From a virus: a stretch of 30,119 nt of DNA. Location of the stretch: positions 1-30,119 of the IMG/VR virus record IMGVR_UViG_3300020214_000081. One strand, 5' to 3'. Shown here piece by piece: positions 1-23,621 of this stretch (position 1 is its first letter; each line of letters begins with the position of its first letter). The notes under the pieces were generated by a model, which saw only the letters and a list, made by a program, of their open reading frames with translations, was not told the origin of the DNA and ran no database searches. Both the position numbers and the translations under genes were made by a program.

Positions 1-774
1 AAAAAAGAACTAAATGGAGAAATCTATGATATGGGTAGGAAATATGATAAAGAAGGTTTCATCAACAAAATCAAAACAGATGATGAGTTTGCTAAGAAGT
101 GGGGTGAATTAGGACCAATTTATGGTAAGCAGTGGAGAAGTTGGGGAACAAATAAATACGATGTTATTGGTATACATAGAGTAGATCAAATCCAAAATCT
201 AATCTCCGAACTTAAAACAAATCCAGACTCAAGACGACTAATGGTTTCAGCTTGGAATGTAGGTGAATTAGACCAAATGGTTCTTCCACCTTGTCATTAT
301 GGATTTCAGGTTTATACAAGAGAGCTAACCTGGGAAGAACAGGTGCAATGGGTAATGAAAAACACCGGTGTTGAATGGGAGAATGTCTATATTGTTGAAG
401 AAGTTGCTAAAGAGTCAACTCCAAAAAGAGCAGTTTCGCTAATGTGGAATCAGCGGTCAGTTGATACTTTCTTGGGTTTACCATTCAACATTGCCTCTTA
501 TGGACTGTTGCTTGAAATCATTGCTAAAGAAGTTAATATGGTTCCTGATGAACTAATTGGTAATTTAGGTGATGTACACCTTTACAGTAATCATATCAAA
601 CAAGCAAAGGAACAGATTGGTAGAGAACCTTACCCATTACCAATAGTCAAATTAAGCTCAGGTCATAACCTCAGAGCGGCTATTAAAGGTAACTTTGATG
701 AGATTGATCCAACCGACATCCTATTAATGAACTATAAATCACACCCAATAATTAAAGCACCTCTTTCAAACTAG
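1..774 (+). CDS. thyA: Thymidylate synthase (5' truncated by window edge)
   Basis: Converts dUMP to dTMP using methylene-tetrahydrofolate, supplying thymidine for phage DNA synthesis. The frame is open back to base 1, so the true start lies upstream; the ATG at 31 is internal. Visible family features are the catalytic Cys in PPCHYGFQ (Cys codon 292-294), the QRSVDTFLGLPFNIASYG nucleotide/folate-binding block and the C-terminal GDVHLYSNHI segment. An insert of roughly 35-40 residues separates the catalytic Cys strand from the QRS motif compared with E. coli ThyA; I recall similar inserts in other phage enzymes. The next gene starts 19 nt downstream on the same strand. Family assignment is secure; only the N-terminus is missing. 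Confidence 0.96.
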   Translation, partial: KKELNGEIYDMGRKYDKEGFINKIKTDDEFAKKWGELGPIYGKQWRSWGTNKYDVIGIHRVDQIQNLISELKTNPDSRRLMVSAWNVGELDQMVLPPCHYGFQVYTRELTWEEQVQWVMKNTGVEWENVYIVEEVAKESTPKRAVSLMWNQRSVDTFLGLPFNIASYGLLLEIIAKEVNMVPDELIGNLGDVHLYSNHIKQAKEQIGREPYPLPIVKLSSGHNLRAAIKGNFDEIDPTDILLMNYKSHPIIKAPLSN

Positions 775-805
775 ACTGAGGTAAATAACTTTAATGTATA
801 TTTAT

Positions 806-1471
806 ATGAAAAGAACCTTTTATATGTTGCTAATGTTGTTACCGGTGGTAGCAATGGCACAATCCCAACCTAAATATGCGGCAACTGATACTGTAAGACT
901 AAAACATACAAATTACACAGCAGTTTTTTCAAAATCACTAAAGTATCCAGTTCTTGTTGAGTGGTGGACTACTAAAGCAATGGTAACTTGTTCAACTCCT
1001 CTTAAAAGAAAGGATTCATTTAAACCTGACCCATTACTTCCAGCTGAAACAAATATTGCAGCAGATTATGTTGGATCAGGAACCGACCGTGGTCATATGA
1101 TGCCGGTGGCTGATAACCTTTGTCAAACTCAACAAGTTCAGGATGAATGTTTTTATTTTTCAAACATGGCTGCCCAATACCATTCCCTAAATGCAGGAGA
1201 TTGGAAGTCCCTGGAAACTTATACTCGTGCACTTGCATCAGAAAGAGATTCTATTAGAGTTTGGTGTGGTAATATTGGAGTAGCTAAAACAATCGGAAAG
1301 GGCACAGCTGTTCCAACTCACTGCTGGAAAGTTATTTACATTAAATCGTCTAATGAATGGCATGCATTCTTATTTGAAAATACTACAGAAAAGCCAGATG
1401 GCTTAGCAAATAATGAAGTGGCACTGCCTCAAATTAAAAAGCTTACCGGATTTAAGTTTAGAGTTAACTAA
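806..1471 (+). CDS. Secreted DNA/RNA non-specific endonuclease (NUC family)
   Basis: A beta-beta-alpha metal nuclease of the Serratia nuclease/NucA type. The catalytic motif DRGHMMP (His general base) is followed by YFSNMAAQ and a conserved Asn before GDWKSLE, the metal-binding part of the family. The protein begins with a basic, hydrophobic signal-peptide-like segment (KRTFYMLLMLLPVVAMAQS) with a plausible cleavage site after AMA, so it is probably exported to the periplasm or outside. I chose the ATG at 806 because it puts Lys-Arg directly before the hydrophobic core; an in-frame ATG at 794 would add four residues. At about 220 residues it is a normal length. Possible roles are digesting host or extracellular DNA or excluding other DNA; the role is inference, the fold is not. 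Confidence 0.9.
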   Translation: MKRTFYMLLMLLPVVAMAQSQPKYAATDTVRLKHTNYTAVFSKSLKYPVLVEWWTTKAMVTCSTPLKRKDSFKPDPLLPAETNIAADYVGSGTDRGHMMPVADNLCQTQQVQDECFYFSNMAAQYHSLNAGDWKSLETYTRALASERDSIRVWCGNIGVAKTIGKGTAVPTHCWKVIYIKSSNEWHAFLFENTTEKPDGLANNEVALPQIKKLTGFKFRVN

Positions 1472-1501: not shown

Positions 1502-2101
1502 ATGGATATTCGATTAACTGATACTTTTATAAAAAGTCTAAAGCGACTTATTTGGCATGAAAGCAGTGTCTATAAAACCTGGGCATTTTTTCGCTATGAT
1601 ATCTCCAGATTTATTAAGAATGTTTGGAGATTCCGAAAACCTCTTGCAAACCATTATTGGTGGGATCATCATGGCATATTAAGATTCATGGAAGTTGCGC
1701 TAATCCATATGTCTGATAATATTGAAGTTCACGGTAATGAAATAGATGAAACTCGTCTTAAGAAAGTTGCAGCAATGCGTAGAGTCATTAGACTAATTCA
1801 AAACTACAATGATGATCAGTATATTGAAATGGCTGAAGCTGAACTTGGTGAAATTGTCCATCATCCATGGGAATTTGAACCAGTTGATGGAAAGGACGAT
1901 CTTTTTCAATTAGTCGACCATGATACACCAAAAGAAAAGGAGCATACCCGCAAAGTTTATGATAGAGCCAGAGAAATAGAGGTTTCTGAATGGAATGAAT
2001 TAATGTTAATTCTTAAGGGCCAAAACTATACCAAATTTAAGAAAAAGGTCGATTGGAATAAACAGTTTGATGGATCAGGTCTAAAGTCCTGGTGGAACTA
2101 A
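1502..2101 (+). CDS. Conserved-looking phage protein of unknown function
   Basis: I do not recognise a named family. The 199-residue protein is soluble and rich in Trp and charged residues, with an aromatic/His cluster (NHYWWDHHGILRF, about residues 50-62) followed by a predicted helix with alternating charges and an ETRLKKVAAMRRVIRLI segment. The His-rich WWDHHG patch could bind metal, but no catalytic pattern is clear. No signal peptide or membrane segment is visible. The ATG at 1502 follows a 30-nt gap after the nuclease gene. A promoter-like sequence begins just after its stop, so it probably ends the thyA-side unit. Confidence 0.75.
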   Translation: MDIRLTDTFIKSLKRLIWHESSVYKTWAFFRYDISRFIKNVWRFRKPLANHYWWDHHGILRFMEVALIHMSDNIEVHGNEIDETRLKKVAAMRRVIRLIQNYNDDQYIEMAEAELGEIVHHPWEFEPVDGKDDLFQLVDHDTPKEKEHTRKVYDRAREIEVSEWNELMLILKGQNYTKFKKKVDWNKQFDGSGLKSWWN

Positions 2102-6130: not shown

Positions 6131-7474
6131 GTGCAAAAAGTTAATGAAATGGCATTTTCTAAAGACAACTCTATCATTATCTTTGATCTAGATGACACCC
6201 TGGTAGTTACCAATGCAAAGATCCTAGTTAAAGATTCTCTGACTGGCGAAACCTTTGATCTTACTCCACAGGAGTTTAATGAGTACGAAAAGGAGCCCCA
6301 TCACGAGGTTGATTATAATCAGTTCAATGATGCAAATATTCTTAAAGCCGGCCGCCTAGTTGAATGGGTGCTTAATATATTAAGGGAAGCCTATGAATCT
6401 GGAACAGCTGTCGGCATTATAACTGCTAGAGATAATAAACAATTAGTTAGAGAATTTTTACTTTCTCATGGCATCGACGTACACCCTAAATTAATCTACG
6501 CCGTCAGCGATCCAGAATTTGGGGTTGACGGATCTATCGCAGAAAAGAAAAAAGAGGCTTTCAGAAAGCTAATCACAAAGGGTTTTAGACACTTTACTTT
6601 TTATGATGATGATCGTAAAAATCTAGAATTAGCAAAAAGCCTTGAAAACGAATTTGATAATATTACCATAAAGACCAGAAAAATTGGGCGGACACAGGTT
6701 CCAAAGCTTAATATTAAAACAGTTGGAATTTTCAGTGGAAAATTTAAACCACCACACACCGGTCACTATGAAGCAATTAAAAAGATTGCCGAAGAAAATG
6801 ATGAGGTACACGTGTTTATCTCAAGGACTCCAATGGCTGGAATTAGTGGAAAAGAGGCCAGGGCTGCACTTGAATATTATCTAGAAGACTTTGATAATGT
6901 TGAATTGCATATTGCATCAGTAACACCAGTTAGAAGTGGATATGAATTTGTTGATGCCCTTGGTAAAACCCAGCTTGCACCAAATATAGTTGTTAATCTT
7001 TATGCAATCGCTAAAGATATGCCCAGATGGGCTGACATGGAAAAGTGGAAGGGCGCCATTTCTAAAATTAATAGAATTGAAACTGAACGCCCTGAATTTG
7101 GAGGAAACTCTGGTTCGGGAGGTGATGAAGATGGCATGTCTGGAACTTTAATGAGAAAGTTTTGGGCAGATCGGGATCTTGACAATTTTGCTTTAGGGAT
7201 TCCTCAAGGAAAAGATCCCAACCGGGTTTGGTTACTATTAGGAGGTAAAATTGAAGAGGACCTGCTATTGCCAGAGTTACCCAGAAGCCGCTCTAAAAGT
7301 AACCCCGATATGGATGATTTACCACCAGAAAGGGCTCCTCAAAGAGTTGGTGGAGGAAATAGAGTTCCAGCCCAATGGACAATGTACAGAGCAAGTAGAC
7401 AAGAACTAGGCGCCAGTCCCGCGGCTGGAACAAGCCGAATAAAAACTTTTTCGGACTTTATTTCCGATAAATAA
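6131..7474 (+). CDS. HAD phosphatase fused to HxGH nucleotidyltransferase
   Basis: A two-domain enzyme. Residues about 14-185 are a HAD phosphatase: motif I FDLDDT (D19, D21), motif II Thr in GIITAR, Lys-rich motif III (AEKKKEAF) and motif IV FYDDDRKN. Residues about 195-350 are a cytidylyltransferase/NMN-adenylyltransferase-like domain with GKFKPPHTGH (203-212) and the second nucleotide-binding motif MSGTLMR (336-342). The tail is Pro/Arg-rich and ends RIKTFSDFISDK, a capsid-targeting-like motif at the extreme C-terminus. Plausible roles are nucleic-acid 3'-end or nucleotide processing, or NAD-related metabolism; the substrate cannot be read from sequence. The GTG at 6131 has AAGG 8 nt upstream; the ATG at 6149 is an alternative start. 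Confidence 0.85.
   Translation: MQKVNEMAFSKDNSIIIFDLDDTLVVTNAKILVKDSLTGETFDLTPQEFNEYEKEPHHEVDYNQFNDANILKAGRLVEWVLNILREAYESGTAVGIITARDNKQLVREFLLSHGIDVHPKLIYAVSDPEFGVDGSIAEKKKEAFRKLITKGFRHFTFYDDDRKNLELAKSLENEFDNITIKTRKIGRTQVPKLNIKTVGIFSGKFKPPHTGHYEAIKKIAEENDEVHVFISRTPMAGISGKEARAALEYYLEDFDNVELHIASVTPVRSGYEFVDALGKTQLAPNIVVNLYAIAKDMPRWADMEKWKGAISKINRIETERPEFGGNSGSGGDEDGMSGTLMRKFWADRDLDNFALGIPQGKDPNRVWLLLGGKIEEDLLLPELPRSRSKSNPDMDDLPPERAPQRVGGGNRVPAQWTMYRASRQELGASPAAGTSRIKTFSDFISDK
7467..7474 (+). promoter_or_regulatory. Late-promoter-like element overlapping a stop codon
   Basis: ATAAATAA includes the Asp-Lys-stop end of the preceding gene (GAT AAA TAA) and lies 20 nt before the ATG at 7495. Its extension shares the 15-mer ATAAATAACAAAAAA with the leader at 6106-6120. 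Confidence 0.4.
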
Positions 7475-20726: not shown

Positions 20727-23621
20727 ATGGCAGGGCTAAACCACTTAAAAGATATTTACGAAAAAAAGGGCAAAGAATTTTTAGAGGCCTTACTTAACAA
20801 AGAGGTGATCGTTAATGAAAAAATGGACGGTGCATTTTTTGGTGCGCAAAGAAACTGTGGAAACAGCGAAGAACCCTTTGACTTTTTTAAGCGTAATACT
20901 AAGTTGACTGGAGTTGACCGTGTCCTAAGTTCATATTATAATCCGGCGCTAAAGCATTTTGATTCAATTTCGACAGAGACGATTGAAAAATTACCATGCA
21001 ATTATCACTTTGGCATGGAGTATTTTAGCTCGCCAACTGCTCAGTCAATTCAATATGATAGACTTCCAAAGAATCACCTTATTTTGAGTTATATCCATAA
21101 GTTAGACCAAAGCGGAGAGCCTTCAGAAACTATTCAAGATAAAGCTGAACTCGACAAATGGGCAGATATTTTAGAAATTGAAAGGCCGCCAATTATTTTT
21201 CAGGGTAAACTTACTGACGATCAGCGAGAAAAAATTCTTGATTTTGTCTATACTCCATTAGATGAATTGGTTGGAAAATTTAAGACTGCTTCTTTTACTA
21301 AATATATTATTAATGTCCTAAACCCAGAATTGAAAACTTCATTCTTAAGAGATACGGCAGACAAAGATATTGAGGGGATTGTTTTTAGATTTTACGAACC
21401 CAGTGGTGAAGATTCAGTATTTTTAGCAAAACTCGTTGACCCAGTGTTCCAAGCAAGAGCAAAAGAAAAGGCTCAAGCCAGAGTCGAGGCGCCTAAGACA
21501 GATGATTATATTTGGATTATGACAGCCGATCTAATGAATTTTATTGAAACCTATTCGCAGGCAGATCTTAGTGCAATTAAACCCGATGGAAAAACGTTTG
21601 AAAAGAGATATATTCAAATAATTAATGCCATCTTTAAGGATTTTGTGCAAGAGTATGGAGCAAAATACCGTGGTCTTGAAATTACCACACCCGAATTTTT
21701 AAATAAACCAGAATTTGATGTTAACCGCGAACTAATTAATGACGATATTATTATTAAGTTAATTGATTCAGATAAAACCCTTAAAGAACTTTATAGAGTT
21801 TTTTTAAATACTTTTAGAAAGAAAAACATTAGAGTTAGCTCAACATTCTTTAATAAGACTATGAAAGAGACTCTAAAAAATCAAATTGCCAAAGTGCAGC
21901 TTGCCGCAGAGGACAAATTAAACGAATCATTTTTTCCGACCTTTAATCAATTTTTTGGAACTGATGAGGATGCCACTGACTTTTTTAGTCAGTTTCAAGC
22001 GGACCAAAATAAAAAAAAAGAAATTGAGGTCGTTGTTTATTTAGACAAGTTTCAACCGCTAAGCAAAGAGCACGAAAAAATTGCAGCTAATATTAAGGGC
22101 AAGTACGATGCAGCCTGTTTAATGGTAGCGTACCATCCCGGCCAACGAAGTTCGGCTTTTCCAATGACACTGGAAACGGTTAAGGGGTCAATTGATAGAT
22201 TGGCAAAAACTTCTGATTATGTAGTTGGCGGATCTACCGTTGATTCAGTTGGAATCGATGAATTAATTTCTGCAGTTGGCCAGGGCTATTCAATCAAAGC
22301 CGTTGCAACAAATCCAGAATTTATACCAGATCTTGTAATTGATCTAAAGCGAATCAATAAAAGAGCACCGTATGCTAAAATCCCTTCACAATTAAAGGTG
22401 GTAGAAGTTCCAAAAATCGAATTTGAAGGCGATCTAATTAAATCAGTAAAGGATCAAGATTTTGTTCTCTATAAGAACTTAACTAGCAAACCATTGCATT
22501 CCGAATTTTATAATATGACAAAGGAGATTGAAGAATCCCTATTGACTGAGTCAATTTCGGTTGAAGAACTTGAGAAAAAGAAAACGGATCTACTTGATTT
22601 GATTATTGATGCACCCTATAATGAAAAGATCTATAAAAAGATTGAAAAACTTTTAAAGAAAACTCACAAAGATAATACTAATGATTTAACTGAGTTTTTA
22701 TCAAAGACTAAAGGCTGGAAAGATCTTGCAAAAACAATTGTTGCACTTGCAGATGAACTTGATCAAGATGATGACCTAATGATATATCTTCAAACACCGA
22801 CTCTTACACTGACAGATCTTACCTCAACCGCAAGCGGCAATTTGAAAACTCTCTTTAAGAGTACCGGGCTTAAGCCAGAACTATATGATTCTCTTTTCAA
22901 TCTAATTGGATCAGTCGGTAATGTAAATATTGGTCGCGGTGAAATTTTAATCTCAATCTTAATTAAAGATGCAGTAAATGCAGATAATCGTACAAAGGGA
23001 GACATTAAAATTGGATCGGATTCGATTGAACTTAAATCGAGCGGCGACAATTTTAGATTAACTGGACAGAGCGGAACTGGACTGGGCGCGGACGCTGGAA
23101 ACTATATTAGAAAAGGTCTTTCTGACCTATTTAAAGAGGCAGAACATCCCATTCCGGAATATTTAGATGATTCATCAAGCTTTACCCCAACGGCATCCGA
23201 TAAACCCAGAAAAGAATATTTTAGTCAGGGAATCGAAGCCGCGGTTAAAGCTTCATCCAAGGCCGAGGTTGTTGATATTTTAGCCAGTGGCTTTAACTTA
23301 ATTTATAAAAACTATCGGGCTGAGCTTATCCAGACTTTTAATTTAGCAATTAGCGACGAGGGGGTATTTAATAATAAAGCCTACCTAGATGGGGTGCTTA
23401 AAATTGAGTTTGACAGATATTTAGAGGACGGTAAATACTTTATGGCTGTAAATAAGCACACCGGAGACTACATTTTAATTAATGGCAAGATCACAGACGA
23501 CCAACTTAAATACTTTAAAGTTGGGCAGGCCAACAATATTAGAGCCAAATCAACTTCCTCGGACTCTTTATTGGGAATAGACCTCAATATGGATTCGTTC
23601 CTACCTCAAAACCAAGAATAA
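20727..23621 (+). CDS. Fusion: RNA/DNA ligase domain, degenerate nucleotidyltransferase, PD-(D/E)xK-like domain
   Basis: At 964 residues this is the largest protein in the window. Residues about 25-240 carry ligase-type motifs: VNEKMDG (31-35, K32 the AMP-accepting Lys), HFGMEYF (motif III, 94-100), DIEGIVFR (motif IV, 214-221) and LAKLVD (motif V, 234-238). Residues about 432-600 resemble the cytidylyltransferase/NMNAT fold, with KFQPLSKEHEKI (441-452) where active enzymes have an HxGH motif, so this copy may be inactive. Residues about 730-800 fit a PD-(D/E)xK nuclease core: E739 in IGRGE, GDI (D759) and IELKSS (E768, K770). A FNQFFGTDEDATDF stretch near 406-419 recalls the small protein at 7495. 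It could seal or trim nucleic-acid ends; the full architecture is unknown to me. Confidence 0.8.
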   Translation: MAGLNHLKDIYEKKGKEFLEALLNKEVIVNEKMDGAFFGAQRNCGNSEEPFDFFKRNTKLTGVDRVLSSYYNPALKHFDSISTETIEKLPCNYHFGMEYFSSPTAQSIQYDRLPKNHLILSYIHKLDQSGEPSETIQDKAELDKWADILEIERPPIIFQGKLTDDQREKILDFVYTPLDELVGKFKTASFTKYIINVLNPELKTSFLRDTADKDIEGIVFRFYEPSGEDSVFLAKLVDPVFQARAKEKAQARVEAPKTDDYIWIMTADLMNFIETYSQADLSAIKPDGKTFEKRYIQIINAIFKDFVQEYGAKYRGLEITTPEFLNKPEFDVNRELINDDIIIKLIDSDKTLKELYRVFLNTFRKKNIRVSSTFFNKTMKETLKNQIAKVQLAAEDKLNESFFPTFNQFFGTDEDATDFFSQFQADQNKKKEIEVVVYLDKFQPLSKEHEKIAANIKGKYDAACLMVAYHPGQRSSAFPMTLETVKGSIDRLAKTSDYVVGGSTVDSVGIDELISAVGQGYSIKAVATNPEFIPDLVIDLKRINKRAPYAKIPSQLKVVEVPKIEFEGDLIKSVKDQDFVLYKNLTSKPLHSEFYNMTKEIEESLLTESISVEELEKKKTDLLDLIIDAPYNEKIYKKIEKLLKKTHKDNTNDLTEFLSKTKGWKDLAKTIVALADELDQDDDLMIYLQTPTLTLTDLTSTASGNLKTLFKSTGLKPELYDSLFNLIGSVGNVNIGRGEILISILIKDAVNADNRTKGDIKIGSDSIELKSSGDNFRLTGQSGTGLGADAGNYIRKGLSDLFKEAEHPIPEYLDDSSSFTPTASDKPRKEYFSQGIEAAVKASSKAEVVDILASGFNLIYKNYRAELIQTFNLAISDEGVFNNKAYLDGVLKIEFDRYLEDGKYFMAVNKHTGDYILINGKITDDQLKYFKVGQANNIRAKSTSSDSLLGIDLNMDSFLPQNQE

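Follow-up and report, generated by a model that had tools for sequence, protein, structure and literature searches.

A predicted exported nuclease of large T4-like phages and its possible part in host lysis

Results

The nuclease locus

The window, by which we mean the whole stretch of DNA analysed, is a virus record of 30,119 bases with T4-like genes. Among them are those for a portal (PF07230, 1e-65 by Pfam), a ClpA/C-type ATPase (by Pfam) and a UvsW-type helicase; the window is a fragment of a large T4-like phage whose host probably belongs to the Bacteroidota. Positions 6131–7474 encode a protein that combines a polynucleotide-kinase/HAD-like part with a cytidylyltransferase-like one, and positions 20727–23621 a 964-aa protein carrying an RNA-ligase domain.

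The features around the nuclease gene are collected in Table 1. Its reading frame is open and intact from the ATG at position 806; the ORF listing starts it at an in-frame ATG at 794 (225 aa), and the homologues fit the 806 start. An earlier note had described an intact DRGH nuclease lying beside thyA, and both parts of that description hold: the open frame scores 126.6 bits against PF01223, with DRGH at residues 94–97, and thyA lies directly upstream. The 5′ end of thyA has been lost at the window edge, since the Pfam match begins at profile position 76. The gene downstream of the nuclease has no Pfam match above cut-off.

Table 1. Features at and around the nuclease gene (window coordinates)
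Feature	Position	Strand	Basis or remark
thyA, thymidylate synthase	1..774	+	PF00303, 9.6e-62; upstream neighbour of nuclease, same strand
TAAATAA, promoter-like element	782..788	+	17 nt before ATG at 806
TATTTAT	799..805	+	Directly before ATG at 806
DNA/RNA non-specific endonuclease (Endonuclease_NS), 221 aa, intact	806..1471	+	PF01223, phrog_14168, AlphaFold2/Foldseek
Predicted Sec/SPI-type signal peptide, residues 1–18 (MKRTFYMLLMLLPVVAMA)	806..859	+	Crude rule; kept in kind, not in sequence
Gln19, predicted new N-terminus (Q-rule)	860..862	+	[ASG]^Q across homologues
DRGH catalytic motif, residues 94–97	1085..1096	+	R95, H97 invariant in 62/62
Asn129	1190..1192	+	Invariant in 62/62
Glu137	1214..1216	+	Invariant in 62/62
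Downstream colinear gene, function not assigned	1502..2101	+	Kept beside nuclease in L002–L008, L044

Fold and active site

The PF01223 match (E-value 1.5e-36, against a cut-off of 23 bits) is joined by one to the nuclease family phrog_14168 (2.1e-22); a search of NCBIfam returned nothing. Relatives of solved structure found by sequence are EXOG (2e-16), the Serratia nuclease (3.5e-14), Anabaena NucA and EndoG. A Foldseek search with an AlphaFold2 model (pLDDT 91.8, pTM 0.84) returned EXOG at 6.5e-18 and also EndoG, NucA and the Serratia nuclease. We take the fold that these proteins share to be the Beta-beta-alpha-Me nuclease fold.

Searching IMG/VR with the window protein turned up 172 related stretches, and 80 of these were kept. 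The resulting homologue set of 80 full-length copies, from 79 of the 80 fetched loci (the truncated L044 being excluded) plus the window, contains 62 distinct proteins. R95, H97, N120, Q124, N129 and E137 are invariant in all 62, and D94 is kept in 61; one homologue (L056:6001–6630) carries NRGH in place of DRGH. H97, the His of DRGH, is presumably the general base; Asn129 we take to be the equivalent of the family's Mg2+-binding, metal-binding Asn, and Glu137 the second conserved active-site acid. C62, C106 and C173 are likewise invariant and C115 is present in 61 of the 62, a pattern that would be compatible with disulphides forming only after the protein has left the cytoplasm. Among three close relatives the dN/dS of the mature part is 0.07–0.09, an approximate value as dS reaches 1.26, and by this measure the mature part is under purifying selection. 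A chance or broken ORF is ruled out by the Pfam match, the invariant residues and dN/dS. Membership of PF01223 with the active-site residues checked here is well supported, and cleavage of DNA and RNA is predicted.

Signal peptide and export

The N-terminus of the nuclease, MKRTFYMLLMLLPVVAMA^Q, has a basic start and an 11-residue stretch with a mean hydropathy of 2.68, and the predicted cut is VAMA^Q. The earlier note had called this an export signal, open to checking by signal peptide prediction. Under a crude rule (a positive start, an 11-residue hydrophobic stretch and small residues at −3 and −1) the window nuclease passes, with the cut at AMA^Q, as do 61 of the 62 distinct viral homologues, the window included. 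The exception, L059, is read from a late ATG, and its N-terminus from an upstream ATG is signal-like (not re-scored). Gln follows Ala, Ser or Gly at the cut in 61 of the 62 proteins and Thr in L059. For comparison, the rule was run on 362 gene clusters neighbouring the nuclease, with each Met up to residue 40 tried as a start; 59 passed, 22 of them with Gln after the cut. A scan with a deep-branching homologue added 13 further distinct proteins, of which 12 pass; L319 fails on charge under the rule.

The signal sequence is more variable than the mature part (mean top-residue frequency 0.51 vs 0.76). Model confidence is low over the first 30 residues (block means 57, 51 and 66) and reaches 94–99 in the later blocks, except the last, a profile more in keeping with a cleaved signal than with an internal helix. 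An internal helix is further disfavoured by the homologues, whose corresponding segment is N-terminal, variable and of signal type.

Ala, Ser or Gly followed by Gln at the cut constitutes the Bacteroidetes 'Q-rule', as set out in an excerpt of PMC5837995. A signal of this kind therefore supports export and, following the available part of PMC10653852, points to a Bacteroidota host. The protein was also examined for a type IX secretion tail, and none was seen: the Pfam match reaches residue 223 of 225 (794-start numbering) and no other family is present. The first destination is therefore expected to be the periplasm, and release to the surroundings would come on lysis. We regard the presence of an intact Sec-type export signal as well supported, and from it we infer export itself.

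Distribution and phylogeny

A scan with the portal of the window's clade found 38 loci that are 91–100% identical in the best segment. Twelve of these lie on contigs longer than 15 kb, and seven of the twelve hold the nuclease; judged from the position of the portal, the other five contigs end before its expected place. The gene is present in all seven of the searched window-clade records that span this place. More widely, a T4-type portal occurs in 15 of 50 nuclease records, including 7/7 of those of 180 kb or more, which makes it unlikely that bacterial contigs have been mistaken for phage.

A tree was built from 62 viral rows, 59 homologues from bacterial genomes and 6 INPHARED phages. The viral rows and 12 of the genome rows form one clade of 74 with full support (100/100), in which the window groups with L002 and L005 (100/99); long branches carry five of the six INPHARED rows, and L162 may have been joined to L168 falsely. 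Genome rows L082–L084 fall among the phage rows, and a comparison of their flanks with phage neighbour proteins gave one match, in L083. Bacterial relatives are common (at least 456 confirmed stretches), and many of the 25 looked at have signal-like N-termini by eye. The nuclease clade is a mainly viral branch, most likely with a bacterial origin. One record labelled as phage, L169 (CAKLQH020000003.1, 'Acinetobacter phage MD-2021a'), has the bacterial genes kup, aqpZ and rhtB around its nuclease and is probably a bacterial contig.

Promoter-like elements

TAAATAA occurs within 45 nt upstream of 8 of the 31 window genes, the nuclease included, where 0.54 would be expected; we take it to resemble T4 late promoters. 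Of 61 nuclease genes, 30 have TATTTAT no more than 22 nt from the start, compared with 0.9% of random positions. On both strands of 61 related loci, chosen as representatives of L002–L081, there are 758 copies of TATTTAT, with an ATG following after 4 nt in 103 cases, after 5 nt in 50 and after 6 nt in 28; the background is 6–14 at gaps of 1–3 and 7–11 nt, and 20 at gap 0. A second rise (18–39) is seen at gaps of 12–18 nt. These sequences suggest that the nuclease gene has a promoter of its own, which, if the likeness to T4 late promoters is a true one, would be late. Separately, TATTTAT may be a promoter element, and its closeness to the start codon would then make the mRNAs leaderless.

Linkage to the endolysin gene

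A GH19 endolysin (PF00182) was found in 40 of the 50 nuclease records searched. It is on the nuclease's strand in all 40 and upstream in 33; the median distance is 7.8 kb, with 31 of the 40 within 10 kb, in a sample of related records some of which are short, and shortness favours small distances. Because the records are related, we attach no p-value to the linkage. Counting once a phage that was sampled four times leaves 28 of 37 within 10 kb. Fourteen records of at least 100 kb have both genes. In 13 of them no more than 18.3 kb separates the two, and in L080 the endolysin is 91 kb away; of the 11 records left once duplicates are removed, 10 have it within 18.3 kb, 7 of these within 10 kb. 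The other ten of the 50 records gave no match to PF00182, and those of at least 100 kb among them are L075 (115 kb) and L013, whose sequence stops 2 kb beyond the nuclease. The 30,119 bases of the window exclude the endolysin gene, so that the linkage is known from relatives.

In the same records the portal gene, taken as a control, is within 10 kb of the nuclease in 2/14 and on the same strand in 4/14. For thyA the figures are 7/24 within 10 kb and 24/24 on the same strand, with a median of 20.7 kb; adding six weaker matches, some with stops, gives 11/30 and 30/30 for records over the Pfam cut-off. Since thyA is also always on the nuclease's strand, a common strand alone is weak evidence. thyA lies within 1.5 kb of the nuclease in L060, L076, L080 and L081. 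A thyA–nuclease pair as a general unit was rejected, as the two are close only in some lineages. Direct neighbours vary by lineage, and in many lineages they are unrelated genes on the opposite strand. The immediate neighbours were also discarded as a guide to function, given that the window's downstream gene order recurs in only 8 of the 80 fetched loci (L002–L008 and L044, with L005 ending after the first gene).

Individual loci give a closer view of the endolysin region. In L007, which is close to the window, the stretch between endolysin and nuclease covers 5.8 kb, and every gene called in it, the two included, is on one strand. L051 and L076 share the order nuclease, thioredoxin-type gene, GH19 endolysin and small two-TM protein, and in L063 a spanin-like protein with a signal and a C-terminal TM segment is followed by the GH19 endolysin and then the nuclease. 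A thioredoxin-type gene stands directly behind the nuclease in six loci, namely L051 (6647–6904), L046, L054, L057, L060 and L076; the L051 copy, the only one tested with Pfam, matches PF00085 at 2.4e-16. Spanin-like genes near the endolysin or nuclease were noted at L063:3057–3767 and, in similar form, in L046, L057, L060, L070 and L076. Their products have a signal and a coiled region, with a C-terminal TM segment in four of the six as called, and two that were tested matched no Pfam family over cut-off. The holin and spanin labels are topology-based, and the best Pfam holin match falls below its cut-off. Receptor-type proteins with Q-rule signals are encoded close to the nuclease at L036:2118–5396 (OMP_b-brl_4 with CarboxypepD_reg) and at L051:9342–11594 (Plug with OMP_b-brl_3).

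A second phage family and related nucleases

The 'DNA/RNA endonuclease G' of Flavobacterium phage vB_FspM_immuto (MW353176) resembles the window nuclease in having a Q-rule signal (FSFS^Q) and in being an exported-type nuclease in a phage of the Bacteroidota, but is only 27.8% identical, has DKGH, and lies near nrdA and nrdB in a 160-kb phage. Its relatives in IMG/VR number 116 confirmed, of which 80 were kept and 56 are distinct; 55 of the 56 pass the signal rule, and 55 of the 56 have Gln after Ala, Gly, Ser or Cys. The linkage is looser in this family: a GH19 endolysin is present in 21 of 37 searched records, on the same strand in 21/21 and at a median of 11.8 kb; in immuto itself, nrdA and nrdB are closer to the nuclease than GH19 is.

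The nucleases of Klebsiella phages K64-1 (gp363, NC_027399, annotated as 'periplasmic DNA/RNA non-specific endonuclease') and RaK2 belong to the nuclease family of the window protein, come from jumbo phages and have a signal-like N-terminus. The K64-1 protein differs in its identity to the window's (27.9%), in having DKGH for DRGH, in its Klebsiella host, in the lack of a Q-rule site and in sitting on another branch of the tree; its relatives in IMG/VR come to one locus only. Signal-like N-termini were also seen by eye on family members from phages of Pseudomonadota, namely K64-1, Phosso and XaC1 (all >300 kb) and GN1 (145 kb). Two families and the Pseudomonadota phages together make a predicted exported nuclease a recurring phage trait. 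The earlier note had said that phages more often keep nucleases inside the cell; the present one is no oddity, with two phage families keeping export signals and the K64-1 example already annotated as periplasmic.

Outside phages, the best PDB matches by both sequence and fold are the mitochondrial nucleases EXOG and EndoG, which differ in being eukaryotic and, for EXOG, in an added domain (title of 5t4i). The extracellular nuclease of Serratia marcescens (1g8t, 1ql0; TMq 0.74 for 1ql0) and Anabaena NucA (1zm8; TMq 0.80) have the same fold and active-site pattern but come from bacteria rather than phages; for NucA an intracellular inhibitor, NuiA, is on record (title of 2o3b). The phage proteins form a viral branch, well conserved, within a nuclease family that is already known, and we have not found the positional link of this branch to lysis described. 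In the open-licence PMC literature we found no description of this nuclease family or of a lysis-linked exported nuclease, which is weak evidence of novelty.

Discussion

The fold, active site and signal of this nuclease, its mainly viral clade and its linkage to the endolysin gene in relatives are results of computation. The interpretation we favour, at a little short of an even chance, is that the protein enters the periplasm by export while infection proceeds and, at lysis, attacks the nucleic acid that is set free. The phage would make a non-specific, metal-dependent nuclease that the host Sec system exports; signal peptidase I would remove 18 residues to leave Gln19, which the host may convert to pyroglutamate. 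In the periplasm the enzyme would be kept apart from the phage genome during copying and packaging, and this separation of compartments would also spare the phage's own genome from attack by a non-specific nuclease. Once the endolysin opened the wall, the nuclease would come upon DNA and RNA released from the host or left unpackaged and cut them, thinning the lysate and freeing the virions, whose packaged DNA would be protected. That the enzyme works during or after lysis is favoured by its linkage with the endolysin; its activity, its late timing and any gain to the phage are inferred along with export itself. A more elaborate proposal, which we consider doubtful, is that large Bacteroidota phages possess, in addition to holin, endolysin and spanin, a fourth lysis function in the form of a nuclease that is loaded into the periplasm ahead of lysis, is inert in the reducing cytoplasm and is activated by oxidative folding outside. 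It draws on the four near-invariant cysteine columns and on the thioredoxin-type gene behind the nuclease in six loci, and would make wall breakage and the clearing of released nucleic acid one programme.

Other roles for a periplasmic nuclease have to be considered, among them the nucleotide recycling, the breaking of DNA-rich matrix and the blocking of other phages' DNA that the earlier note proposed. The export signal targets the very compartment that incoming DNA must cross, so the enzyme could destroy the DNA of later-arriving phages, perhaps where another phage protein blocks passage through the inner membrane and leaves that DNA in the periplasm. In T4 exclusion, DNA is broken down by host endonuclease I; our literature search found no text on T4 exclusion with such breakdown. 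Against a superinfection barrier, lambda DNA is not degraded by periplasmic nuclease according to an excerpt of PMC10287942, and T5 enters in a way that shields its DNA from nucleases in the periplasm according to an excerpt of PMC10975011. The escape of entering lambda and T5 DNA weakens the idea, and no PADLOC model matches the nuclease (0 families at E 0.01). Envelope-sited cutting of injected DNA can exist, as the available text on SNIPE indicates, with a nuclease that faces the cytoplasm (PMC13190303). On balance we think a barrier of this kind unlikely. Digestion of biofilm or cell-surface DNA, helping virions to spread, would call for the same biochemistry and for a nuclease released on lysis, and other genes with Q-rule signals lie near the nuclease in relatives (the 22 of 362 neighbour clusters). 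It overlaps with a role at lysis to the point that sequence cannot separate the two, but a surface anchor or type IX secretion tail is absent and we consider it improbable as a purpose of its own.

The nuclease might instead degrade nucleic acid outside the cytoplasm for products that feed phage DNA synthesis. thyA adjoins it in the window clade and is no more than 10 kb away in 11 of the 30 records over the Pfam cut-off, nrdA and nrdB are near the immuto nuclease, and phage-borne TonB-type receptors lie near it in L036 and L051. Nucleotides would, however, need dephosphorylation and import, the main source of DNA, the host chromosome, sits in the cytoplasm, and thyA is distant in most lineages (the median of 20.7 kb over 24 measured), which together leave nucleotide supply quite improbable. 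That the gene is a captured bacterial one with no phage-specific task, or encodes a virion component, seems to us very improbable. Bacterial relatives are indeed common, many with signal-like N-termini by eye, but viral copies make up 62 of the 74 rows of the fully supported clade, the mature part appears to be under purifying selection, and the gene is kept in 7/7 window-clade records spanning its place; a cleavable signal is unsuited to a virion protein.

If action at lysis is the true role, then when large phages lyse cells of an abundant host phylum, an enzyme that deals with the spilled nucleic acid is part of the process. This would bear on virion release, on the amount of free DNA remaining for gene transfer and on the kinds of nutrient that the environment gets back. 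The family is also a diverse set of candidate benzonase-like enzymes and a clear test case for phages using the Bacteroidetes Q-rule export path. Phage proteins that would use this host path have been noted in phages of Porphyromonas gingivalis, where the set consists of five prophage genes whose function is not known and which the available part of the source does not describe as nucleases (PMC10367356). Within the immuto-type family, the two exceptions to the counts for the signal rule and for Gln, L269 and L279, have a lipoprotein-like signal by eye, with export seemingly kept and the anchor changed.
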